64,000 nucleotides of DNA, from positions 66,101 to 130,100 of the forward strand of contig JAFZYY010000029.1 of the NCBI GenBank assembly GCA_017616015.1, in the 5' to 3' direction. A model generated the notes under the pieces. That model worked only from the letters and a program-made list of their open reading frames with translations. It was not told where the DNA came from and did not search any database. Below, one piece after another: positions 52,334 through 64,000 of this stretch. Positions within the stretch are counted from its first letter, which is position 1. The number at the start of each line of letters is the position of its first letter. Both the position numbers and the translations under genes were made by a program. The DNA comes from Alphaproteobacteria bacterium. GTDB taxonomy: Bacteria > Pseudomonadota > Alphaproteobacteria > CAAGCB01 > CAG-977.

Positions 52334-52391
52334 GAATAAAAAAGGCTTTTGGCGTTTCAGGAAGATGAAGTCAAATAACCAGAGGTTTGTG

Positions 52392-52730
52392 ATGGCTGAA
52401 AGACAAGTGGGTCCGGAACAAGAGGGATTTTATGATATTCTGCAGAACGGTGCGGGAGATTTGCTGATTTCGATTCGGGCTCGGGAAGGCGAACCGGATC
52501 ACCCTCAAATCGTGTATGACGGCGGAAAGCACGCGTTGCTTTACCGGCAGCAGGGTTTTTCCATTACGTTGGATTTTATTCATCCGGACGCGCGCGGACC
52601 GTTGTCAAAAGCGGAATCCGTTTTAATCGTTGAGTTTGAAGGCGGCGAATTAATCCGCGAATACGAAGTTCCCGTGCGTTTCGTAAAAAAATTGCCGCTG
52701 TCTCCCGAAAATCTGCCGGCTCTGCCTTAG
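52392..52730 (+). CDS. Small conserved-looking protein of unknown function
   Basis: 112 residues from the ATG at 52392, which has AGAGG 7 bases upstream; an in-frame ATG at 52365 lacks room for a ribosome site. No signal peptide or membrane segment. The sequence is beta-rich: GAGDLLISIRAREGEPDHPQ, YDGGKHALLYRQQGFSIT, and SVLIVEFEGGELIREYEVPV. It is the nearest gene upstream of the nuo cluster, but there is no evidence that it belongs to that complex. Confidence 0.65.
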   Translation: MAERQVGPEQEGFYDILQNGAGDLLISIRAREGEPDHPQIVYDGGKHALLYRQQGFSITLDFIHPDARGPLSKAESVLIVEFEGGELIREYEVPVRFVKKLPLSPENLPALP

Positions 52731-52797: not shown

Positions 52798-53175
52798 ATG
52801 GAAAACATTACGCACGTTTATTTTTATTTGTTTATCTTTTTTTTGGCGGCCTTTTTGCTGACGGCAGGAATGGTTAAATTCGCCGCGTTTTTAAGCCGGA
52901 AACTGTTTGACCGTTGCGAAAAACAGACCGAGAATGACGGATACGCGGGCGGGTTTTATATTCTTTCTCCCGTGACGGTTCGCTTTCCCGTTCGATTTGC
53001 TTTCATTGCGTTGTTGTTGGTTTTATTTAACGCGGAATTGTTGCTGTTATTGCCGTGGGCGATGTCTCTTCGTTTGTCTTCGGGCGAAGGAATGGCGACG
53101 GCAATGTTGGTGATTTTATCCTGGGGACTTGGTTATTTTTACGAATATAAAAAGGGGGCGTTGGAATGGAAGTAA
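52798..53175 (+). CDS. nuoA: Complex I subunit NuoA (divergent)
   Basis: 125 residues, three membrane helices as in NuoA/ND3. It carries VRFAFIALLLVLFNAELLLLLPWA in the second helix; the matching E. coli motif is FDVE (D79, E81), so the Asp is Asn here (N78) while the Glu stays (E80). The YECG-type loop with its conserved Cys is replaced by NDGYAGGF. First gene of the nuo cluster; overlaps nuoB by 10 bases. Confidence 0.82.
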   Translation: MENITHVYFYLFIFFLAAFLLTAGMVKFAAFLSRKLFDRCEKQTENDGYAGGFYILSPVTVRFPVRFAFIALLLVLFNAELLLLLPWAMSLRLSSGEGMATAMLVILSWGLGYFYEYKKGALEWK

Positions 53176-53630
53176 CCCCCGAACGTTGGCAGGATCAAAT
53201 GCACCGGCAGGGCTTTGCGATAACAGCGCTTCAAACTTTTATCGCGTGGGCGCAGGGGTGTGCCGTTTCCGCTTTGCCGGTTTCGACCGGGTGTTGTTGC
53301 TGTTTTTCTCAGCTACGTCAGGCCGGAGCCGAACCTGTTTTTAATCCGCATCACGCGGACGTGCTTGTGGTCGGCGGTTTTTTGAGCAACAAAGCGGCTT
53401 TTGCCGTGCGGCGGATTTATGATCAGATGCCTTGTCCGAAATACGTAATTGCTTTGGGCAGTTGTGCGGCAAGCGGCGGTTTGTTTGCCAATTCGTACGC
53501 CGTCGCCGACGTTAAGGATATTTTGCCCGTTGATGTCTTTATTCCGGGGTGTCCTCCCGACGCCAAAGCCGTTTCGGAGGGAATGAAAGCACTGCGCCGC
53601 GCAATACGAACAAAAGCCAGGGAGAAATAA
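53166..53630 (+). CDS. nuoB: Complex I subunit NuoB (N2 Fe-S cluster)
   Basis: 154 residues. Holds the terminal 4Fe-4S cluster N2. All four cluster ligands can be placed: the tandem Cys in STGCCCCFSQ, the Cys of ALGSCAASGG and the Cys of IPGCPPDA. The segment RRIYDQMPCPKYVI matches the family. The Glu that follows the double Cys in other NuoB proteins (CCAVEM) is not conserved, and the N-terminus is shorter than usual. Confidence 0.9.
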   Translation: MEVTPERWQDQMHRQGFAITALQTFIAWAQGCAVSALPVSTGCCCCFSQLRQAGAEPVFNPHHADVLVVGGFLSNKAAFAVRRIYDQMPCPKYVIALGSCAASGGLFANSYAVADVKDILPVDVFIPGCPPDAKAVSEGMKALRRAIRTKAREK

Positions 53631-53631
53631 C

Positions 53632-54210
53632 ATGCCGGCTTTCGTTTATAAAACGCAGGAGGAATACGGGCAGTTTATACGACTGCATTTCGCCAGACAG
53701 GATATACCGGAACAAACGATTGTTTCAGGGATTCTGACGCTGAAGGTTCTGAGGGCGGCATTGCCCCGGGTAATGCAGTTTTTACGCGATGATCCCGTTT
53801 GCCGGTTTACGCAGCTGACGGATATGACGTGTGTGCATTATCCCGATCAACAGGATTGTTTTTGCCTGATTTATCATTTGCTCAGTCCGATGTTGGGACG
53901 GCGGTTAAGGATAAAGCTGACCACACAGGAAGACGTGCCCGTTTCTTCCGTGACGGCGATTTTCGCAAATGCGGACTGGTATGAACGCGAAATACGCGAA
54001 ATGTTCGGCGTTTCTTTTGAAGGGCATCCGGATCTCAGACGGCTTCTGACGTATGAAGAAACGGCTTTTTTCCCTTTGCGCCGGACGTATCCTGTCCAGG
54101 GAAGCAAACGACTGATATACGATGAGGCAACGGGGCAGTGCGTTTATGTTCCGCGTTTGTCGGAGGAAAATCGTCCCTCCGGCGTTAAATTGGAGCCGGA
54201 AAAGCCATGA
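53632..54210 (+). CDS. nuoC: Complex I subunit NuoC
   Basis: 192 residues of the 30-kDa subunit family. The conserved RFTQLTDMTCVHYPDQ region and the signature DWYEREIREMFGVSFEGHPD are clear, followed by LRRLLTYE. It forms the peripheral arm with NuoD. The start lies 1 base after the nuoB stop and the end overlaps nuoD by 4 bases. Confidence 0.92.
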   Translation: MPAFVYKTQEEYGQFIRLHFARQDIPEQTIVSGILTLKVLRAALPRVMQFLRDDPVCRFTQLTDMTCVHYPDQQDCFCLIYHLLSPMLGRRLRIKLTTQEDVPVSSVTAIFANADWYEREIREMFGVSFEGHPDLRRLLTYEETAFFPLRRTYPVQGSKRLIYDEATGQCVYVPRLSEENRPSGVKLEPEKP

Positions 54211-55367
54211 CGATGTTTGAAGACAGCTATTTTATCAATATAGCTCCGATGCCGGCCGCCGGAATGGGAATGTGCCGGTTTGTCGGACGTTTGGACGGGG
54301 AAACCGTTCAGCAGGTTGACGCTCATATCGGTTTTTCTCATCGGGGAATTGAAAAGTGCATGGAAAGCGTGACCCCGCTTCAGGGGCTTGTTTATGTCGA
54401 AAAACTGAATCGTTCGGCGCCGTTTTCCTGTACGCACGCGTTTGTTTTGGCTGTGGAAAAGCTGTTGGGAGTGAGTGTCCCGGAACGGGCTTCTCATATC
54501 CGCGTGATATTGGCTGAAACAGGGCGCATTTTATCGCATTTGCGGGCAACGGCCAATTTGGCGGCGGAAACGGGAACAAACAGCGTTTATCCTTTGACGA
54601 ACAAAATGGCGGAGCGCATTTATGCTCTGTTGGACGAAATATGCGGCGCCGATCCGTTTTGCACCTTTATTCGTCCCGGCGGCGTAAAAAAAGATTTGGC
54701 GCCCCGAACGGAAGAAATTCTTTCCGCGTGGCTGTCAAAAGAGTTGTTGCCGGTGATGAGGGAAATCGAAGATCTGCTGACGGAAAACAGAATATTCAAA
54801 TCCCGGACGGTCGATATCGGAAAAATCGACGCGCCGCTGGCGGAAGCGTTGGGCTTTTCCGGAGTGAACCTGAGGGCTTGCGGCGCAAAATGGGATTTGA
54901 GAACGGCCGAACCGTATGAGGTTTATGGAAATCTTTCTTTTGAGGCGCCGATCAGAACCGAAGGGGATTGTTATTCCCGATATTTATTGCGGATATTTGA
55001 AATCTATCAGTCGATGCAGATTATTCGCGAAGCTCTGGAAAAAATGCCGCAGGGAGAAGTGATTCTGCCGGATTTTGAAATAAAGGAAACCGAAACTTTA
55101 ACGCTGTTGAGCCGTCATTTCGAACTGTACGAAAAAGGAATCTCTTTGCCGGCGGGAGAAGTTTATGCCGCCGTGGAATCTCCGTTAGGCGAATTCGGCG
55201 TATTTTTGATTTCCGACGGCAGCGCGCGTCCGTATCGTTGCCATTTCCGATCAGCGGGCTTTCCCGTTATGCAGGCGCTGGACGCTTTAACGGCACAGTG
55301 CGATTTGGCTGATGTACGCGTGATCGCGGCTTCGTTAAACCTGATTACGACGGAGATAGATCGATGA
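54207..55367 (+). CDS. nuoD: Complex I subunit NuoD with a remodelled quinone site
   Basis: 386 residues of the 49-kDa subunit family (HIGFSHRGIEKCME, LAVEKLLGVSVPERA, FIRPGGVKKDL, WDLRTAEPYEVYGNLSFEAP, GEFGVFLISDG). The two quinone-headgroup residues known from Thermus Nqo4, His38 and Tyr87, align with Met20 and Arg69 (a constant offset of 18). The GPQHPxxHG loop is APMPAAGMG. There is no CxxC pair, so this is not a NiFe hydrogenase subunit. The N-terminus is short. It is a true complex I relative that probably cannot bind ubiquinone in the usual way. Confidence 0.88.
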   Translation: MTMFEDSYFINIAPMPAAGMGMCRFVGRLDGETVQQVDAHIGFSHRGIEKCMESVTPLQGLVYVEKLNRSAPFSCTHAFVLAVEKLLGVSVPERASHIRVILAETGRILSHLRATANLAAETGTNSVYPLTNKMAERIYALLDEICGADPFCTFIRPGGVKKDLAPRTEEILSAWLSKELLPVMREIEDLLTENRIFKSRTVDIGKIDAPLAEALGFSGVNLRACGAKWDLRTAEPYEVYGNLSFEAPIRTEGDCYSRYLLRIFEIYQSMQIIREALEKMPQGEVILPDFEIKETETLTLLSRHFELYEKGISLPAGEVYAAVESPLGEFGVFLISDGSARPYRCHFRSAGFPVMQALDALTAQCDLADVRVIAASLNLITTEIDR

Positions 55368-57304
55368 TCTCGATGACGATTAACACTCTTCCGGTTCAGG
55401 CGGAACAAGGCAGTTCGATTTTACAGGCGGCTTTGTCAGCCGGAATTCCCGTCACGCATTTGTGTGTGGAAAATTCGTTGGGGATTAAGGGAAATTGCGG
55501 TCTGTGTCTGGTTGAAATAGAAGGGAAAAACTCTTTGGTTCCGGCTTGCGAAACGCCGGTTGAGGAAAATATGCGCGTTTTGACGGATACGCCGAAAGTC
55601 AGACAGGCGATTCGGGAAAGAGCTGCAAAACTGTTCGCCAATCACCCCGCGGACTGCGCGTTGTGTTCCAAAGCCGGGGATTGTGTCATTCAAAAAATTT
55701 GCACGCAGTATCGGCCTGAACTTGCGCCGAAAAAGAAAAAACAGCCGACAAGAAAACTGTTGGACTGGATAGAATGCGATGACGAAAAATGCATCGGTTG
55801 CGGCAGATGCGCCGCTTTTTTGAAAAAGATCGGTCTTGAGGATAGCGCTGCCATGCCGCCGTCTTCCTGTCCGCCGTTTCCTTTGTCCGGAACTCTGACC
55901 GATATATGCCCGTCGGGAGCTTTGACGGAAAGCGCGTCCGATTTGAAACGCGCCTGGGAAATCAGAAAAATTCAAAGTATAGACGTAACGGACTGTGTCG
56001 GAACGAAAATCGATCTTAACGTGGTGGACGGTAAAATCATATCGGCAAAACCAGCTGAAACGGACGGGCTTATTTCGGACAAGGCGCGCTTTTGTCTGGA
56101 CGGATTAAGCAAAAACAGAATTGATCGTCCGTATAAACGGATAAACGGACGGTTGACGGAATGTTCGTGGACGGAAGCTTTGACGGCCGTCGCGGAAAAA
56201 ATGAAAACAATTTCCGCAGATAAAATGGCGGGATTGATCGGGGAATATGCCGACTGCGAAAGTATGCTGGCGTTAAGGGATTTGTTTGCGCTGAAAGGGG
56301 CAAACGCGATTGATGCCCGGCCGGACGGCATGTATTTCGATACGCACAGCCGGCAGTCGTGGCTGTTTAATACGCCGTTTTCCAGAATTTGCGAAGCGGA
56401 CGCTTTGTTGTGCGTCGGCGCTGATGTCGATGCGCTTGCTCCGGCTGTTGCGTGGCGCTTAAGACAAAATCCGATGCCTAAAGGTTTTGTCGGAAAAAAG
56501 ACCAATTCATGCCTGCCGTATGAGGCGTTGTCGAATAAACCGGTGATTTTGGAAGATATTCTGAACGATTTGGGACGCGGCGCGGCTTTGCTTCGGCAGG
56601 CTCGAAAGCCGATGATCATTGTCGGAGCGTCGGTAATGCAGCGATCCGACGCGGCGGCGATTATGCGCTTGATTTGTCAGATTTCTCAATACTACAGCGT
56701 GATACGCGAAGACTGGAACGGGTATAATTTTCTGACGGACAAAACGACTGTTTTGGGGGCGTTGGAGCTGGGTCTGATTCCTGAAGAACCTCTGCGCCCG
56801 AAAATGAAAAGCGGTCGGTTTGATTTGATCTATCTGCTGAACGAAGATCGGTTTCAACGCTCTGACGCGCCGGAAGCTTTCGTCGTTTATCAGGGAATTT
56901 ACGCTTCTGACACTGCCCGGGAAGCGGACGTTGTCCTGCCATCTTTGTCATTTGCGGAAAAAAAGGCGACGTACGTTAACGCGGAAGGACGGGCGCAGAG
57001 TACGGCCGTTGCTTTGCCCGCGTTCGGCCAGGCGCGCGAAGACTGGAAAATTTTAAGAGCTTTATCCGAATATTTGGAAACGGCGCCGCTGCCGTATAAT
57101 GATTTGGACGATATTCGCGATGCTTTGGCGGGGAAAAGTATTGTCTTTTATTCCCGCGGAGAAATTCATAAGGCTGAAAATAAAGAATTCGGCGTTGCCG
57201 GAAAGCTTTCGGACGAACCAATCGACTCTTTCTGCGATTCCTTTGCGGACGAATTGAGCCGTCAGTCCGAGCACGCAAAAATGTTACGTTGGAGGAGCCG
57301 TTAA
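55364..57304 (+). CDS. nuoG: Complex I subunit NuoG, multi Fe-S protein
   Basis: 646 residues, slightly short. N-terminal 2Fe-2S domain with four Cys (HLCVENSLGIKGNCGLC, then PACETPV), the His-Cys3 motif NHPADCALCSKAGDC (cluster N5), and CIGCGRCAAF with DICPSGAL (cluster N4). The remainder is a molybdopterin-oxidoreductase-like fold without the metal cofactor motifs. It normally accepts electrons from NuoF; here it directly follows nuoD and there is no nuoE or nuoF between. Overlaps nuoD by 4 bases. Confidence 0.9.
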   Translation: MISMTINTLPVQAEQGSSILQAALSAGIPVTHLCVENSLGIKGNCGLCLVEIEGKNSLVPACETPVEENMRVLTDTPKVRQAIRERAAKLFANHPADCALCSKAGDCVIQKICTQYRPELAPKKKKQPTRKLLDWIECDDEKCIGCGRCAAFLKKIGLEDSAAMPPSSCPPFPLSGTLTDICPSGALTESASDLKRAWEIRKIQSIDVTDCVGTKIDLNVVDGKIISAKPAETDGLISDKARFCLDGLSKNRIDRPYKRINGRLTECSWTEALTAVAEKMKTISADKMAGLIGEYADCESMLALRDLFALKGANAIDARPDGMYFDTHSRQSWLFNTPFSRICEADALLCVGADVDALAPAVAWRLRQNPMPKGFVGKKTNSCLPYEALSNKPVILEDILNDLGRGAALLRQARKPMIIVGASVMQRSDAAAIMRLICQISQYYSVIREDWNGYNFLTDKTTVLGALELGLIPEEPLRPKMKSGRFDLIYLLNEDRFQRSDAPEAFVVYQGIYASDTAREADVVLPSLSFAEKKATYVNAEGRAQSTAVALPAFGQAREDWKILRALSEYLETAPLPYNDLDDIRDALAGKSIVFYSRGEIHKAENKEFGVAGKLSDEPIDSFCDSFADELSRQSEHAKMLRWRSR

Positions 57305-58309
57305 ATGACAGATTTTTTAAGAACGCTTTTCCGGACGGATATTCGGCCTTTTCTGCGCGATTTGGCGCCGATAGGAACAATGTTGATTCATGCGGCGGCT
57401 TTTTGCGTGTTTATTTTGCTTGTCAGTTTCTTTTTTTGCTGGGGAAAAGAGAAGATTCGGGCAAGAATGGAAATGCGCCGTTCCGTTTCGATGAAGCAGC
57501 TTTTCTGTCGCTTGTGCGTCAGATTCCTCAAATATCCGGCCATTCCGGAGCAGGCTCAAAAGACTCTGTTTGTTTTGGCGCCGTTGTTTGCCTTTGTTTT
57601 TTCGGTGTTCTTTTTCTTTTTTATGCCGGTCGGTTCGAAGTATCTGCCTCACCCCGATGTCAGCATGCTGTATTTTTTGTTCGCGGCTTCGGGCGGCGTT
57701 TACGCTTTTATTATCGGCGGGTGGAGTAGCGCTTCCCGTTTCAGCTTTTTCGGAGCGTTGCGTTTTGTGGCGCAGTCGCTGGCGTGTCAGCCGATTTTGG
57801 CTCTGGTCGTCGTTACGATATTGATGACGGCGGGCGGTTCCGATTTGCAGGCGGTTATGCGGGCGCAAAGGCATGTGTGGTTTGTCGTTCCTCATTTTCC
57901 GCTGTTTATTCTGTATATTTTGTCGGTTACGATGATGCTGGCTCAGGCGCCGTTCGGATCGCCCAAGTCGGATCTGGAATTAGCCGGAGGTATCTATTCG
58001 GAATACAGCGGCGCTTTGTATGTTTTATTCCTGATTTCGGAAAATGTTTTACTGCTTTTATGCGCCGTAATGGGCAGTTTCCTTTTTCTGGGCGGAACGA
58101 TGCCTTTGTTCGGCATGGATTATCCGGAAACGGTGCTGATGGTTAAAACGGTTTTTTTGCTGTTTGTTTTTCTATTAATCAAAGAAACGCTGCCCAGTTG
58201 GAGAACGGATAAAATCATGCATATCAGTTTTAAAATCTGTCTGCCGTTCGCTCTTGTTTGGCTGACAGTCACGGCCGGCGCACTGTATTTTGTTCAGGGG
58301 GCGGGATAA
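57305..58309 (+). CDS. nuoH: Complex I subunit NuoH with an altered quinone/E-channel loop
   Basis: 334 residues, eight or nine membrane helices. Family frame is clear (YAFIIGGWSSASRFSFFGALR, YSEYSGALYVLF). Compared with family consensus, the Glu of the AQxxSYE motif is Gln (AQSLACQ, about residue 162). PFDxPEAExEL has become PFGSPKSDLEL (about 217-227), and the N-terminal loop GPNxVG is lost (KEKIRARMEMRR). These residues line the quinone entry and the E-channel in known structures. Confidence 0.88.
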   Translation: MTDFLRTLFRTDIRPFLRDLAPIGTMLIHAAAFCVFILLVSFFFCWGKEKIRARMEMRRSVSMKQLFCRLCVRFLKYPAIPEQAQKTLFVLAPLFAFVFSVFFFFFMPVGSKYLPHPDVSMLYFLFAASGGVYAFIIGGWSSASRFSFFGALRFVAQSLACQPILALVVVTILMTAGGSDLQAVMRAQRHVWFVVPHFPLFILYILSVTMMLAQAPFGSPKSDLELAGGIYSEYSGALYVLFLISENVLLLLCAVMGSFLFLGGTMPLFGMDYPETVLMVKTVFLLFVFLLIKETLPSWRTDKIMHISFKICLPFALVWLTVTAGALYFVQGAG

Positions 58310-58621
58310 ATGAATATCAGAAAAAAATTGAACGTTCTGCTTTTTCCGGATATATGGCGCAGTCTGCGGGTTTCTTTGCGCTACGCTCTGGGAATCGGAT
58401 CCGCGCAGAAAATGAAGCCGTTTACAAAAACTTCGCCCCGATTGCCCGTCGTTGATTTCCAAAAATGCGTCGGGTGCGGACTGTGCGTGAAAATCTGTCC
58501 GGCACAGGCTGTTTCGGTAAAGACCGGATCTGATTTTTCGTTATCCGAAGAAAAATGCGTTTCCTGCGGTTTATGTGCGGAATCCTGTCCTGAAAACGCG
58601 ATTACGCTTGAAAGGAAATAA
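58310..58621 (+). CDS. nuoI: Complex I subunit NuoI, shortened 2[4Fe-4S] protein
   Basis: 103 residues, against about 160 for most NuoI proteins. The N-terminus is amphipathic (LLFPDIWRSLRVSLRYALG). Both ferredoxin motifs are complete: CVGCGLCVKICP (residues 53-64) and CVSCGLCAESCP (83-94). It passes electrons toward N2. The usual interdomain and C-terminal extensions are missing. The nuoH stop abuts its start (TAAATG). Confidence 0.88.
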   Translation: MNIRKKLNVLLFPDIWRSLRVSLRYALGIGSAQKMKPFTKTSPRLPVVDFQKCVGCGLCVKICPAQAVSVKTGSDFSLSEEKCVSCGLCAESCPENAITLERK

Positions 58622-58626
58622 AGAGT

Positions 58627-59130
58627 ATGTATGCCGTCGAATTTTATATTTTTGCTTTTTTGGTTTTGATTTCGGCTTTTTTATCCGTCATGGTCAAGCA
58701 TATTTTATACGCGGCGTTTTGTCAGATTCAGGCTGTTGTGGCGATGGCGGGAATTCTGGCCGGACTGAACGCGAAATTTGTCGGTTTTGCTCTGTTGTCC
58801 GTGACAGCGACGTCTTTGCTTGTTTTTCTGGTGTTTTCCCTGATAGTTTTTGATTTTCATCAGGCGCATGCGAAACTTCCCGAAAAGGCATCGCGTTCGT
58901 CATTGATCTTTTTTATTCTGTTGGGAGTGCAGACAATCTATATGTTTTTCAAGCCGCAATGGTCGATCAGAAAGCCCGCTCCCGATTTTTCGTTGCCGGA
59001 ACTTGGAAATATTTTATATGCGGATTACGGGCTGTGCGTTGTTATTTTTGCGGCGCTTGTTTTATCCAGTATGGTGGGGATTGCGGCACTGCTGGTTCGC
59101 AAGACCGATAAGAACGGAGAAAAACCATGA
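58627..59130 (+). CDS. nuoJ: Complex I subunit NuoJ (divergent)
   Basis: 167 residues, five membrane helices, matching NuoJ/ND6 in place and pattern. The conserved third-helix motif YVGAVAVLFLF is not present (SVTATSLLVFL), and the AEFLAM segment before it is AKFVGF, turning a Glu into Lys. Overlaps nuoK by 4 bases. Assignment depends on gene order more than on sequence. Confidence 0.75.
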   Translation: MYAVEFYIFAFLVLISAFLSVMVKHILYAAFCQIQAVVAMAGILAGLNAKFVGFALLSVTATSLLVFLVFSLIVFDFHQAHAKLPEKASRSSLIFFILLGVQTIYMFFKPQWSIRKPAPDFSLPELGNILYADYGLCVVIFAALVLSSMVGIAALLVRKTDKNGEKP

Positions 59131-59435
59131 TCATAGATGTGCCGGTTATTTTAACGGTCAGCTCTTTTTTAGTGTTTTTCGGACTGTGGGGAATTTTACG
59201 CCATAGAGGGGATTTGATGCGTATTTTATTGGCGCTGCAGTTGATTTTTTTGGGATCATTGTTTAATTTTTCGATGGGCAGCGCTTTGTTTTCCGACGCT
59301 TCCGGCGTGATTTTTTCATTGTTTATCGCGTGCCTGACGGGAGTACAGACAGTGGCGTCATTGGCTCTGTTTTTGCTGTATTTTCGCAAACACGATCGCC
59401 TGATTCCGGATCATATCGAAAAGATGAAGGGATAA
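59127..59435 (+). CDS. nuoK: Complex I subunit NuoK with both channel Glu residues replaced by Gln
   Basis: 102 residues, three membrane helices. Aligned to E. coli NuoK with a constant offset of 2, E36 (LIGLEIM) becomes Q38 (LLALQLI) and E72 (AAAEASI) becomes Q74 (TGVQTVA). These two membrane Glu residues are nearly invariant and needed for proton pumping in E. coli. The C-terminus (HIEKMKG) still matches the E. coli end (SVSEMRG). Confidence 0.88.
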   Translation: MIIDVPVILTVSSFLVFFGLWGILRHRGDLMRILLALQLIFLGSLFNFSMGSALFSDASGVIFSLFIACLTGVQTVASLALFLLYFRKHDRLIPDHIEKMKG

Positions 59436-59440
59436 GTCAA

Positions 59441-61255
59441 ATGATCTTTGCCGTCTTTTTGCCGTTGGTTGCCGCCATTTATATTTTTGGCGCGGCTTTT
59501 TTTAAAAAACGCACGTTTGCGTGGGAGGTCGGAACGGCGGCGATCGCCGTAGCCTTTTTCAAAATCGTTACCATGGCGTTTAAAAGCTTTTTCCACGGCC
59601 GCGTTTACAGCGTGTTTCTGCTTCCGTTTTTAAAGCTGGATAATGTCGAGTACGGTTGGCGTCTTCATTTGGAAGCAACCGAAATTTTTCTGGTCGTTTT
59701 TATCGTTTTTTCCGCGTTGATGAGCTTGCTGTTCGTCAGAAATTTTTTGCCTAAACCCCGTATGAACAGGTTTGTCGTATTTTTGTTGCTTCTGCTTTTC
59801 TTTTTAATGATCGGCATCGGCGCCAAGAGCGTTTTTCAATTTTTTGTCGGTTGGGATTTAGCGGTTTTGTCGGCTTATCTGCTGTTAATGCTTTTTCATG
59901 AAAAACAGGCTGTGCGGCAATCGGGAATTAACTTCCTGATCTGGCATACGTTAACGGACGTACCGTTGTTCTGCGCTTTTTATATGCTGACAGAAAAAAC
60001 GGGAACATTTTTCATTCCCCCCTTTATCGATCAATGGTTTACGGCGTTTCAGGGCGGACAGGCCGTCGTTTTTGCCGTTCTGATTTTGTTGGGCGTTTCC
60101 GCAAAACTGTTTTTGTTCGGCACGAATATCATGATTACACAAACGGCCGGTATTTCCGTTCCGGCGCTGGCGTTTATCGCGCCGGCGGCTTTGGGCGGGT
60201 TGGGCGTTTATATCCTCTATATCTGTTTTCCTTTCGTCGAAAAAGAACAGGCGGTCCGTATGCTGTTTACCTGCTGGGGAATTTTGACGGCCGTCAGCGG
60301 ACTGATGATGGCGGCGGCGCAAACAAATATTAAAATAATGCTTTGTTTGTTGCTGATGGGGCAGTTCGGCTTTGTGCTGACGGTTTTGGGGCTGATTGGC
60401 CGGGACGCCGCTTTTTGCGCGTATATTGCGTTGATTACGCCGATGACGGGGCTGATTTTGTGTTCGGGCACAATCATACGGGCTCTTCAGGGGGAAGAAG
60501 ATTTACTGCGCATGGGCGGCTTGAAAAAGCAGTTGCCGTTTTCATTTTGGCTGACACTGCTGTTTTCCGTTTGTTGCGGCGGGTTTCCGCAGATCGGCAA
60601 TTCCGGCGTTATCTGGAAGATGTTTGCCGTTTTAAAAGAACGATTTTCGACGGCGGGTGTCGCGGGATTGACGTTTTATCTGTTTTGTCTGATGTTTGTC
60701 TTTGCGCGTTTGCTGTTTTTGGCTTTTTTAGCCGAATCAAAGTTGTCGCCGTCCGTAACGGAAAAAATAACTCAGCCGTCCAAAACGGAAGCGTTGCCAC
60801 TAATCGTTTTATTGCTGTTGTCTTTCTTTCAAAACAAAGTTTTTGAATTATCCGTTTTGCCGAATTTGTCAGGCGATTTGCCGGCAGGCATGCTTTCTTT
60901 TCTGTTGGTCGGCGCCTGCGGTTTGCCTGCGGGGATATTGTTTTTCAAAAAGAGGGAAAAGGAAACGCCGCGTTTATCGACGGATCGGGCTTTTTATCGT
61001 TGTTGTCTGAAAGGATTTTATTTAACCGATTTTTATCAGATTGTTTTTATTCGTCCTTTTATGGCTTTGGCGGATTTTGCCTGGCGCTTTGCCGGATCGG
61101 AGTTGCTGACGGAAACGCTTCCCAATGCTTTGAAGAAAACGGCGGAAAAATTGCAACAGACGTATTCGGGACGGTCTTCTGATTTCTTTATTTGGTCTTT
61201 GGCCGGACTGTTTATTTTGATTTTTTCATTGCTTCCTTTGTTGGCGGGAGGATAA
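59441..61255 (+). CDS. nuoL: Complex I antiporter-like subunit NuoL (divergent)
   Basis: 604 residues from the ATG at 59441, about 15 membrane helices. The family core is recognisable (GWDLAVLSAYLLL, QTNIKIMLCLLLMGQFGFVL, EEDLLRMGGLKKQLPFSFW). The fifth-helix Glu of GWEGVGLCSYLL is Asp. A Lys aligns with that of GKSAQLPLHTWL, but the His/Trp residues there are gone (AKLFLFGTNIMI), as is the Lys of the THAFFKALLFL segment. The C-terminal part contains the lateral helix region. Confidence 0.85.
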   Translation: MIFAVFLPLVAAIYIFGAAFFKKRTFAWEVGTAAIAVAFFKIVTMAFKSFFHGRVYSVFLLPFLKLDNVEYGWRLHLEATEIFLVVFIVFSALMSLLFVRNFLPKPRMNRFVVFLLLLLFFLMIGIGAKSVFQFFVGWDLAVLSAYLLLMLFHEKQAVRQSGINFLIWHTLTDVPLFCAFYMLTEKTGTFFIPPFIDQWFTAFQGGQAVVFAVLILLGVSAKLFLFGTNIMITQTAGISVPALAFIAPAALGGLGVYILYICFPFVEKEQAVRMLFTCWGILTAVSGLMMAAAQTNIKIMLCLLLMGQFGFVLTVLGLIGRDAAFCAYIALITPMTGLILCSGTIIRALQGEEDLLRMGGLKKQLPFSFWLTLLFSVCCGGFPQIGNSGVIWKMFAVLKERFSTAGVAGLTFYLFCLMFVFARLLFLAFLAESKLSPSVTEKITQPSKTEALPLIVLLLLSFFQNKVFELSVLPNLSGDLPAGMLSFLLVGACGLPAGILFFKKREKETPRLSTDRAFYRCCLKGFYLTDFYQIVFIRPFMALADFAWRFAGSELLTETLPNALKKTAEKLQQTYSGRSSDFFIWSLAGLFILIFSLLPLLAGG

Positions 61256-61259
61256 GTTC

Positions 61260-62681
61260 ATGATGTTGTTTTCTTTGCCTTCCGTAGTTGTTTTCCTGCC
61301 GTTGCTGGGAGCGTTGTTCGTTTTGTTCGTTCGCGGAGACGATAAAGTCGTTTTCCAAAACAGCAGGCACGTATCGTTACTGATTACGGTATGTACTTTT
61401 GTTTTATCGCTGTCTTCCGTTTTGTGGTCAAAAGATATGTCGGACACTTATCTGATGCAGTCGGGGTGGCGGATCAGCGTTGACGCGCTGAGCATGATTT
61501 TTGTCCTGCTGATTTCCTTTTTAACGATTCCGGCGGTTTGCGTCGTGCGACGACATATTTCGTTTTGCGTGCGCGAGTTCTGTTTTTTAATTCTGACGGC
61601 GGAAAGTTTTATGCTGCTTTCCGTTTGTTCGGGCAATATTTTGCGCTTTTTCGTGTTTTGGGAAGCCGCCGTTGTGCCGCTGTTTTTGATGGTTGCGGTC
61701 TGGGGCGTGGAAAAAAGAATCTTTACGGCGTACAAGTTTTGTTTTTCGGACATGCTTGGATCCGTCTTTTTGCTGCCGGTTCTTTTTTTGCTGTATCAGA
61801 AAACGGGAACCGGCAGTTTCGCAGATATGGCGAAAGTTCACTTAAGCAATATGGAAGAAACGGTTTTCCTGCTTTGTTTTGTCGCGACATTGGCATTTAA
61901 AGCGCCTCTTTTCCCGTTTCATGCCTGGCTCAGCGACGCGCAGGCCGAAGCGCCTGTTCCGACGGGTATTTTATTGTGCGGTATTTTTTCAAAACTAGTG
62001 TTTTACGCGATGCTACGATTACTGTTTCCTTTGATGCAGACGTCTTTGGAAAAAGCGGCGCCCTTTTTGCTCGCGTGGGCCGTTTTTTCGGCCGTATACG
62101 GCGCTTTGATTACGCTAAGGCAGACGGAAATCAAAAAGATCGCGGGATTTACTCATTTGGCTCAGGTCGGTTTTCTGGCGGCGGGACTGTTTTGTCTGAC
62201 GCCGAACGCGCTGAAAGGAATGTTGTTTTTATGCGTCGCGCAGGGAATGGCTTTTACGGCGTATTTAATGACGGCCGGCGCTTTGTACGAACGCTTTCGG
62301 TCAGCGGGAATCAGAAATCCGACCGGGCTGATGATGATGTGTCCGTATTTGGGAGCGACGTTTTTTCTGGCGTGTCTGGCTATTTTGGCCATGCCGCCGC
62401 TGATGCCGTTTACGGGTCAGCTGCTGATTTTTGATTCCGTGTTTATACGTTCGGGAACGGCGGCTTTCTTTTTACTGTTATCGGTCGTTTTGCTGTACGC
62501 TTCCTTTTTTAAACTGTTTACGCGCCTGCTGTTCGGAGAGCCTCCGGAAAGAACGTTGGTTCCCGCGGATATGGGCTGGCGGGAAAAAATAATGGCCGTA
62601 TTGTTCGGCGGTATATTTTTGCTTATATCTGTCATGCCGTCTTTGGCGTTCGGTTTGGTACAGAAGGCGATAGTCGGATAA
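61260..62681 (+). CDS. nuoM: Complex I antiporter-like subunit NuoM
   Basis: 473 residues, about 14 membrane helices. Better conserved than NuoL: the fifth-helix Glu stands in VFWEAAVVPLFLMVAVWG, and both channel Lys are kept in LAFKAPLFPFHAWLSDAQAE and CGIFSKLVFYAMLR. The KKIAGFTHLAQVGF segment is typical. So this subunit could still translocate ions. Confidence 0.92.
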   Translation: MMLFSLPSVVVFLPLLGALFVLFVRGDDKVVFQNSRHVSLLITVCTFVLSLSSVLWSKDMSDTYLMQSGWRISVDALSMIFVLLISFLTIPAVCVVRRHISFCVREFCFLILTAESFMLLSVCSGNILRFFVFWEAAVVPLFLMVAVWGVEKRIFTAYKFCFSDMLGSVFLLPVLFLLYQKTGTGSFADMAKVHLSNMEETVFLLCFVATLAFKAPLFPFHAWLSDAQAEAPVPTGILLCGIFSKLVFYAMLRLLFPLMQTSLEKAAPFLLAWAVFSAVYGALITLRQTEIKKIAGFTHLAQVGFLAAGLFCLTPNALKGMLFLCVAQGMAFTAYLMTAGALYERFRSAGIRNPTGLMMMCPYLGATFFLACLAILAMPPLMPFTGQLLIFDSVFIRSGTAAFFLLLSVVLLYASFFKLFTRLLFGEPPERTLVPADMGWREKIMAVLFGGIFLLISVMPSLAFGLVQKAIVG

Positions 62682-62696
62682 AACTGGGAGAAAATC

Positions 62697-64000
62697 ATGC
62701 GAAAAGTAGTTTTGGAATTATTGCCCGTTTTACCCGAAGCGTTTCTTTTCTTTTCGGTTGTCTGTTCTTTGCTGGCCGGAGTGTATGCCGCGCCCAGTCA
62801 TGCCAGAGAAAAAGCGGAAAAATACGTTTATGCAGGATTGCTTTGCGCTTTTGTCGTTCTGTGTTCGATAAAAGTGCCGGAAAAAGGACTGTATTTTGAA
62901 GCATTTGTTTTGGACGCGTTCGCTGTATGGCTGAAAAAACTTTTGCTGTTGGCCGCTTTTATTTGTTTGTTGTTTGCCGCGGATTGGCTGAAGTATAAAA
63001 AATATTCGCGCTTTGAATTCGCGCCGCTGGTCGGATTTGCCGTAACAGGCATGATGCTGACGATTTCAAGCCGAACATTTCTGATGCAATTTCTGGGCTT
63101 GGAAATGATGTATTTCCCACTGCTGTTTTTAACGGCATACAAACGTCTGGGCGAAAGATCAACCGAAGCGGGGGCTAAATATGCCGTCATGGTGTTTTTC
63201 AGTTCCGGACTGTATTTATTCGGCATATCCGTTTTGTACTCATGTTTGGGAACAATGGATTTTGAGAAAATCGCCGCGGCGGATAAAAGCGCGCTGATGC
63301 CGGCTTTGCTGTGGGGGCTGTCTTTTGTGACGGCGGGATTGATGCTGAAAATTGCGGCGGCTCCGTTTCATTTCTGGGCGACCGATGTTTACGAAGGCGC
63401 TCCGTCGCCCGTGACGGCGTTGTTTGCAACGATTGTCCGACTGAGCATTATAGCGGCTTTCGCCCGGATCGTTATGGAACCGTTTGCTTCTTTGATGTTT
63501 TACTGGAAAACGGTTTTGGCGTTTATCGGCGTTTTATCCGTCGTGATCGGCAGTTTCGGCGCCATTGTGCAAACAAATATCAAAAGACTGCTGGCTTATA
63601 CCGTTATTGTTCAAAACGGTTTTTGTTTGTCGGCTTTAGCGTTGGGGAATATTCCTTTGCTGTCTCTGTTTCTGACGGTTGATCTGATTTTGCTGACGGG
63701 GCTTTCCGCTATTATTTTATCGTTGCGCGTCGGAGACGAACTGAGCGAAAAAACGCGCGTGTTGCTTGGCCAGGGGCGGGCAAAACCCATTCGCGGCGCC
63801 CTGTTTTCTTTAATTTTTCTCGGATTGTCCGGCACGCCGCCGTTTGCGGGATTTTGGGCGCGTTTTCAGTTGTTTAAGGAAGCGACTTTGAGCGCGACGC
63901 CGTTGTTCGCCGTACTATTGATGACGGGAAATCTTTTAATCATGTATGTTTATTTCCGCCTGATTCGCCAGATGTATATGACCTCGGCAAAAGAAGAGCT
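62697..64000 (+). CDS. nuoN: Complex I antiporter-like subunit NuoN (runs off window)
   Basis: Open from the ATG at 62697 (GGGAG upstream) to the end of the window, about 434 residues seen. Typical stretches are FLMQFLGLEMMYFP, STEAGAKYAVMVFFSSGLYL, the channel-Lys region GLMLKIAAAPFHFWATDVYE followed by GAPSPVTALFA, and NIKRLLAYTVIVQNGF. The second channel position, usually Lys, seems to be Arg (IVRLSIIA). Last of the cluster seen. Confidence 0.9.
   Translation, partial: MRKVVLELLPVLPEAFLFFSVVCSLLAGVYAAPSHAREKAEKYVYAGLLCAFVVLCSIKVPEKGLYFEAFVLDAFAVWLKKLLLLAAFICLLFAADWLKYKKYSRFEFAPLVGFAVTGMMLTISSRTFLMQFLGLEMMYFPLLFLTAYKRLGERSTEAGAKYAVMVFFSSGLYLFGISVLYSCLGTMDFEKIAAADKSALMPALLWGLSFVTAGLMLKIAAAPFHFWATDVYEGAPSPVTALFATIVRLSIIAAFARIVMEPFASLMFYWKTVLAFIGVLSVVIGSFGAIVQTNIKRLLAYTVIVQNGFCLSALALGNIPLLSLFLTVDLILLTGLSAIILSLRVGDELSEKTRVLLGQGRAKPIRGALFSLIFLGLSGTPPFAGFWARFQLFKEATLSATPLFAVLLMTGNLLIMYVYFRLIRQMYMTSAKEE

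Follow-up and report, generated by a model that had tools for sequence, protein, structure and literature searches.

It has long been asked how the distant pumps of complex I are driven by quinone chemistry. In the canonical enzyme the pumps are linked with the quinone site by the E-channel (PMC7434922), in the sulfur reductase MBS the proximal cluster is itself the catalyst (PMC7684303), and the 11 subunits of the enzymes that have no NuoEFG are encoded by Dehalococcoides, whose respiration involves no quinone (PMC6005880). For complexes without NuoEF either ferredoxin or an [FeFe]-hydrogenase has been proposed as the electron donor (PMC11238625).

The window described here, a stretch of 64,000 nucleotides, is part of the genome G000 (G000:C14:66101-130100; 2.09 Mb, 98% complete), which has close relatives among the rumen Alphaproteobacteria metagenome-assembled genomes of a named collection. 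The family referred to below is the whole order in the genome set used and includes 12 genomes from three genera. All the genomes compared are metagenome assemblies, and the gene absences given here rest on targeted profile searches.

The complex I operon

The operon has the order nuoA-B-C-D-G-H-I-J-K-L-M-N, starts at position 52798 and ends 118 bases past the window, with the homologous core subunits A to D and G to N lying together as in complex I. Repeats and RNA families were also searched for across the region, with none relevant. The features are:

nuoA, 52798..53175, plus strand, PF00507 (E 8e-16); YECGFE loop and Asp79 lost (Ala50, Gly51, Asn78)
nuoB, 53166..53630, plus strand, PRK06411 (126 bits, cut-off 116)
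nuoC, 53632..54210, plus strand, PF00329 (E 1e-37)
nuoD, 54207..55367, plus strand, ATG start, 386 aa; PRK06075, PF00346
codon of NuoD Met20 (Thermus His38), 54264..54266, plus strand, by alignment
codon of NuoD Arg69 (Thermus Tyr87), 54411..54413, plus strand, by alignment
nuoG, 55364..57304, plus strand, TIGR01973 (E 7e-111); directly 3' of nuoD
nuoH, 57305..58309, plus strand, PF00146 (E 3e-60); GPxxVG deletion, SYEV Glu replaced by Gln162, ETNRxPFDLPE loop lost
nuoI, 58310..58621, plus strand, two complete 4Fe-4S motifs (N6a, N6b)
nuoJ, 58627..59130, plus strand, PF00499; TM3 pi-bulge Tyr59 replaced by Thr60
nuoK, 59127..59435, plus strand, PF00420; Glu36 replaced by Gln38 (59238-59240), Glu72 by Gln74 (59346-59348)
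nuoL, 59441..61255, plus strand, TM5 Asp141 and TM7 Lys224 kept; TM12 Lys-Asp pair lost
nuoM, 61260..62681, plus strand, TIGR01972 (272 bits, cut-off 264); Glu135, Lys214 and Lys245 kept; TM12 Glu replaced by Gln387
nuoN, 62697..64000, plus strand, 473 aa, ends 118 bases past the window; Glu136 and Lys218 kept; TM8 Lys replaced by Arg248, TM12 Lys by Arg389

Between glgP and nuoA there is a gene (52365-52730 of the window) for a protein of 113-121 aa, which matched no Pfam family and is 85-95% identical across the family, compared to just 30-75% for the neighboring Nuo proteins. A homologue with 53% identity adjoins nuoB in G080 (L132:3352-3690).

Loss of the quinone-binding residues in NuoD

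The ORF at 54207-55367 is full-length, possesses its own start and ribosome-binding context and codes for the single NuoD of the genome. It scores 379.8 bits against NCBIfam PRK06075 (cut-off 360), matches Pfam PF00346 with an E-value of 2e-78, and scores 304 bits with an alphaproteobacterial NuoD of solved structure. With Thermus Nqo4 (2fug_4) the score is 210 bits, residues 9-386 aligning to residues 27-409 of the latter, which corresponds to an offset of 18 at the N-terminus. The NiFe CxxC motif pair of group 4 [NiFe]-hydrogenases was sought in this protein and is absent.

In the alignment with 25 NuoDs from other alphaproteobacteria, which has no gaps in the first 120 residues, Met20 takes the column of the second His in GPQHPxxHGV and Arg69 that of the Tyr in RLDY, both invariant; the two motifs and the two residues are found in 25/25 references, and the window NuoD has APMPAAGMGM and KLNR in their place. 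This agrees with the first-pass annotation, which had equated Thermus His38 with Met20 and Tyr87 with Arg69 at a constant offset of 18, and re-alignment restored neither residue. The same annotation had considered the change to be specific, with the surroundings still aligning well, which does not hold, as the whole pocket is rewritten and sites in NuoB, NuoH, NuoK, NuoJ and NuoA are gone as well. Class-invariant residues are kept at 7/22 positions in four pocket segments versus 87/118 elsewhere (15/22 versus 31/118 lost), for which the Fisher p of 3e-4 is indicative, the segments having been picked with the first two sites already known. The equivalent of Asp139 is Glu121, a conservative change. 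Phe151 stands where the RxHAAY motif has its N2-side His, which is lost in all 11 family NuoDs. An AlphaFold2 model of NuoD, built from four sequences only, had a mean pLDDT of 37.7 and was discarded.

NuoD is present in 11/12 family genomes. The position of His38 is occupied by M, I, T, G or V and never by His (0/11), and that of Tyr87 by Arg in eight proteins and Ser in one, with the residue lost in another (either Phe or a gap, according to the alignment used) and Tyr kept in G001, the sole family species with nuoF beside nuoG. As judged from these sequences, the change from Tyr to Arg is lineage-specific and no family trait, and the loss of His38/Tyr87 in NuoD is confirmed as beyond chance.

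Iron-sulfur ligands and the missing NADH module

The N2 ligands of NuoB are kept (Cys43/44, Cys100, Cys129), as are the ligands of N1b (Cys34/45/48/62), N5 (His94, Cys98/101/107) and N4 (Cys143/146/149/182) in the window NuoG; the N1b domain is missing from NuoG of G008 and G009. Both 4Fe-4S motifs of NuoI are found throughout the family, even in G010 and G011, where NuoG is missing, and the N2, N6a and N6b ligands are kept across the family, as in complex I. NuoB contains the extra Cys45 and Cys46, followed by a deletion of about 8 residues right after the tandem cysteines, in the loop lining the quinone site, and the extra cysteine was gained in the window genus and G009. The four consecutive cysteines (GCCCCF) are encoded at 53292-53303 of the window, and NuoB of the sister species has CCxC, which combines the complex I tandem with a hydrogenase-like CxxC spacing.

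The nuoE and nuoF genes were sought in the window operon and are absent, so the complex is not simply an NADH dehydrogenase with a different acceptor. A search of G000 for a separate NuoF (PF01512) found none, the sole PF01512 protein being HydB of a HydABC [FeFe]-hydrogenase.

E-channel and antiporter-like subunits

Glu36 and Glu72 of NuoK, both present in 8/8 references, have given way to Gln in almost every family member, Tyr59 of NuoJ is replaced by Thr, Ser or Ala in the family, Asp79 and the YECGFE loop of NuoA are altered, and NuoH has no GP motif, SYEV Glu or ETNRxPFDLPE loop. The residues by which an E-channel is recognized (NuoK Glu36/Glu72, the NuoH loop, the NuoA acids and NuoJ Tyr59) are thus not in place, and the link between the quinone site and the pumps is predicted to be neutralized, a point new with respect to the first-pass annotation. 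The antiporter-like subunits NuoL, NuoM and NuoN retain the acid of TM5 and the Lys of TM7; in TM12 their charge has been lost or changed.

Quinone supply and metabolism of the cell

UbiA, MenA and MqnP are members of one prenyltransferase family, and to our knowledge a UbiA-type prenyltransferase is needed by every known ubiquinone or menaquinone route. A profile search for UbiA-family proteins found none in G000, with 14/14 control genomes giving a match; ubiquinone and menaquinone should therefore not be made, and G000 appears to lack the means of producing the normal quinone substrate of complex I. Cytochrome bd and SDH/FRD were sought as well and not found in G000, and in the family there is just one doubtful SDH/FRD match (G011), a flavoprotein-like gene (PF02910) on the small separate contig L068:1-2730 beside an SdhB-like protein, which is possibly contamination. 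Rnf, considered as an alternative ferredoxin pump, was not found in the family. The gene content of G000, without a UbiA-family prenyltransferase, bd oxidase, SDH/FRD or Rnf, supports well the core idea of the first-pass annotation, a complex for which quinone is not the substrate, as does the co-occurrence of His loss with UbiA loss elsewhere (see below).

A UbiA-family protein is present in six sister genomes (G003, G004, G005, G006, G007, G008), and these matches were considered as a possible quinone pathway; the three that were typed (G003, G005, G008) proved to be decaprenyl-phosphate phosphoribosyltransferase, a cell-wall enzyme, located beside hisH/hisF-like genes.

All 12 family genomes possess [FeFe]-hydrogenases. 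G000 contains HydABC, with HydB of 633 aa including the NuoF core, HydA of 661 aa and HydC of 168 aa, plus a monomeric [FeFe]-hydrogenase. The organism lives by fermentation, not by respiration.

Descent and selection

The same losses are found in 11 genomes of three genera, which have the gene order glgP / nuoA-N / birA / RNase J in common, and three family genomes were also found independently in a second collection. In 7/8 canonical class loci examined birA and RNase J lie behind nuoN. The window family has the same arrangement, and this shared order indicates that the operon is ancestral, by orthologous descent, and not a transferred hydrogenase. The dN/dS values of the nuo genes are about 0.1 to 0.2 between the species of the genus, with dS near saturation, and NuoK, NuoL and NuoM are among the best conserved subunits. 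By these measures complex I appears to have been inherited vertically and to be under purifying selection, and the low dN/dS would be unlike that of a functionless relic, though loss of the operon can occur, as it did in G004. The latter genome (window genus, 98% complete) has no NuoD, no PF01512 protein and one [FeFe]-hydrogenase only. The relatives show a stepwise loss of NuoEF, NuoG, NuoI and finally all but NuoC-NuoD.

Occurrence in other alphaproteobacteria

NuoD was found in 335/385 alphaproteobacterial genomes, the lowest-scoring of which were read. His is absent from NuoD in G013, G163, G032, G341, G263, G035, G166 and G080 (78 to 91% complete), with UbiA above the cut-off in none, and each of the 13 genomes with higher scores carries UbiA with an E-value of 1e-50 or better, with His present in 5/5 NuoDs read. 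Four genomes of family f103 keep both His and Tyr, and their weaker matches are assigned to the UbiA family level only.

Operons of the nuoABCD-HJKLM type without nuoI, nuoE, nuoF or nuoG in the stretch read are found in G163, G032 and G013 (L128, L129, L127), where NuoB retains all N2 cysteines despite the absence of nuoI. In G341 and G263, two small genomes of family f25, only an orphan nuoC-nuoD is left (L130:3978-5589 and L131:7849-9460), which suggests that the pair may have a use of its own. G163 also harbors, in L137:1-7530, HydA/HydB [FeFe]-hydrogenase genes and, directly behind them, a membrane operon resembling that of a group 4 [NiFe]-hydrogenase, the NuoD homologue of which has RVCGIC.

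As glgP adjoins nuoA in the window family as well as in G163/G032, part of the His loss may be a single event. The NuoD tree groups f25 with f103, which retains His, and places the remaining NuoDs without His alongside the window family; because long branches meet there, the number of independent His losses (one, two or more) is unsure.

Possible mode of action

It is well supported that the complex reduces no quinone. The first-pass annotation had suggested that it either reduces something else or has a closed pocket, and the part that quinone is not the substrate stands, while another acceptor is what we infer from the intact iron-sulfur wire. Since the wire to N2 is intact, electrons would still flow, and with neither NuoF nor quinone available both donor and acceptor would have to be others. 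In such fermenting cells ferredoxin is reduced by pyruvate:ferredoxin oxidoreductase. Other complexes lacking NuoEF suggest by analogy that ferredoxin is the likely donor here (PMC11238625), and an N2-based reductase seems the most likely mode because MBS, the one described relative missing the same two residues, uses its proximal cluster for the chemistry (PMC7684303).

Under this reading an ancestral alphaproteobacterial complex I would have persisted in a hydrogen-producing fermenter that stopped making respiratory quinone, with the NADH module, the quinone headgroup site and the acid/tyrosine chain of the E-channel being lost or neutralized. Reduced ferredoxin (or the HydABC hydrogenase system) would feed electrons to NuoG/NuoI and then to N2, which in its remodeled pocket would pass them to a non-quinone acceptor, as in the archaeal enzyme MBS, and ion movement, if any, would take a route other than the canonical E-channel. 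We regard it as an even call whether the complex is such a ferredoxin-fed, MBS-like non-quinone complex I kept by selection. It is proposed only tentatively that N2 reduces its acceptor from ferredoxin without the E-channel, the MBS-like mode having been re-invented in a modern complex I, possibly more than once among quinone-less anaerobes. The parallel to MBS is incomplete at the E-channel, as MBS/MBH keep the NuoK-type Glu and the NuoJ-type acid/pi-bulge (PMC7684303); moreover, no donor or acceptor gene was found, the stepwise losses and the operon loss in G004 also fit a decaying relic, and uptake of a foreign quinone is conceivable too.

The membrane arm could instead work as an antiporter or channel, non-redox or redox-gated, with the peripheral arm as its structural or regulatory cap, as the E-channel and the quinone site were lost together, the TM5 acid and TM7 Lys persist in NuoL/M/N, the subunits NuoK, L and M rank among the best conserved, and A-D and H-N occur in G163/G032 and G013 although NuoI and NuoG do not. 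However, a non-redox role would have no need of the cysteines of N2 and N6 or of the ligands of N4/N5, all of which the window family keeps, and the TM12 exit residues of NuoL, NuoM and NuoN are changed, which leaves such an ion carrier unlikely, if worth bearing in mind. A slowly decaying respiratory relic without selected function would explain the stepwise subunit loss across the relatives and the complete loss in G004, but it is improbable given an operon intact in 11/12 family genomes, the strong constraint in codon positions and dN/dS, and the conservation of the NuoK Gln replacements and of the iron-sulfur ligands themselves. Quinone scavenged in the rumen, where quinone-rich neighbors are presumably common, might be reduced after binding without the usual ligands, which we consider very improbable since no quinol oxidizer was found among those searched (bd, SDH/FRD) and the NuoD pocket, NuoB loop, NuoH GP motif and E-channel are all lost. 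Misassembly or wrong alignment, conceivable for a metagenome-assembled genome, is scarcely credible with the same losses and gene order in 11 genomes, three of them found again in the second collection, and an alignment that is gap-free at both sites.

Comparison with known systems

Taken as a non-quinone complex I, the system is a natural experiment in which the substrate has been removed together with its ligands and the charged connection to the pumps, while the iron-sulfur wire and pump cores are still selected, and it asks what complex I can do once the accepted coupling path is gone. The bacterial group of this organism is related to the ancestors of mitochondria, and the graded series of losses (with NuoF, without NuoEF, without NuoG, without NuoI, NuoC-NuoD alone), which shows the order in which the parts become dispensable, parallels the reduction of mitochondria to hydrogenosomes.

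Gut alphaproteobacteria with a HymABC [FeFe]-hydrogenase (Azospirillum CAG:239 type) are, according to the passages of PMC4967309 considered here, likewise fermentative with an NADH-linked [FeFe]-hydrogenase, and those passages describe no complex I without a quinone site for them. With the alphaproteobacterial and mitochondrial complex I (Nuo14) the window complex shares orthologous subunits, operon order, the nuoN-birA-RNase J arrangement and the N2/N6a/N6b/N4/N5 ligands, but it is without NuoE/NuoF, the quinone ligands and the E-channel acids and tyrosine, in a cell without quinone biosynthesis. In common with MBS of Pyrococcus furiosus, which is ferredoxin-fed (PMC7684303), it has no equivalents of His38/Tyr87 and a shorter loop after the N2 cysteines. 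The window NuoD, however, scores 304 bits to complex I versus 158 bits to MBS, and MBS, a membrane-bound enzyme that reduces sulfane sulfur at a proximal cluster with three Cys, possesses Mrp-type subunits and NuoK/NuoJ-type acids; neither Mrp-type subunits nor kinship to MbsL was found in the window complex, the best matches being to complex I and the operon being nuoA-N. The 11-subunit enzymes without NuoEFG from Desulfitobacterium and Dehalococcoides resemble it in having no NADH module, but the Desulfitobacterium enzyme reduces menaquinone, whereas here NuoG is retained by most species, and the quinone site and the E-channel are gone.
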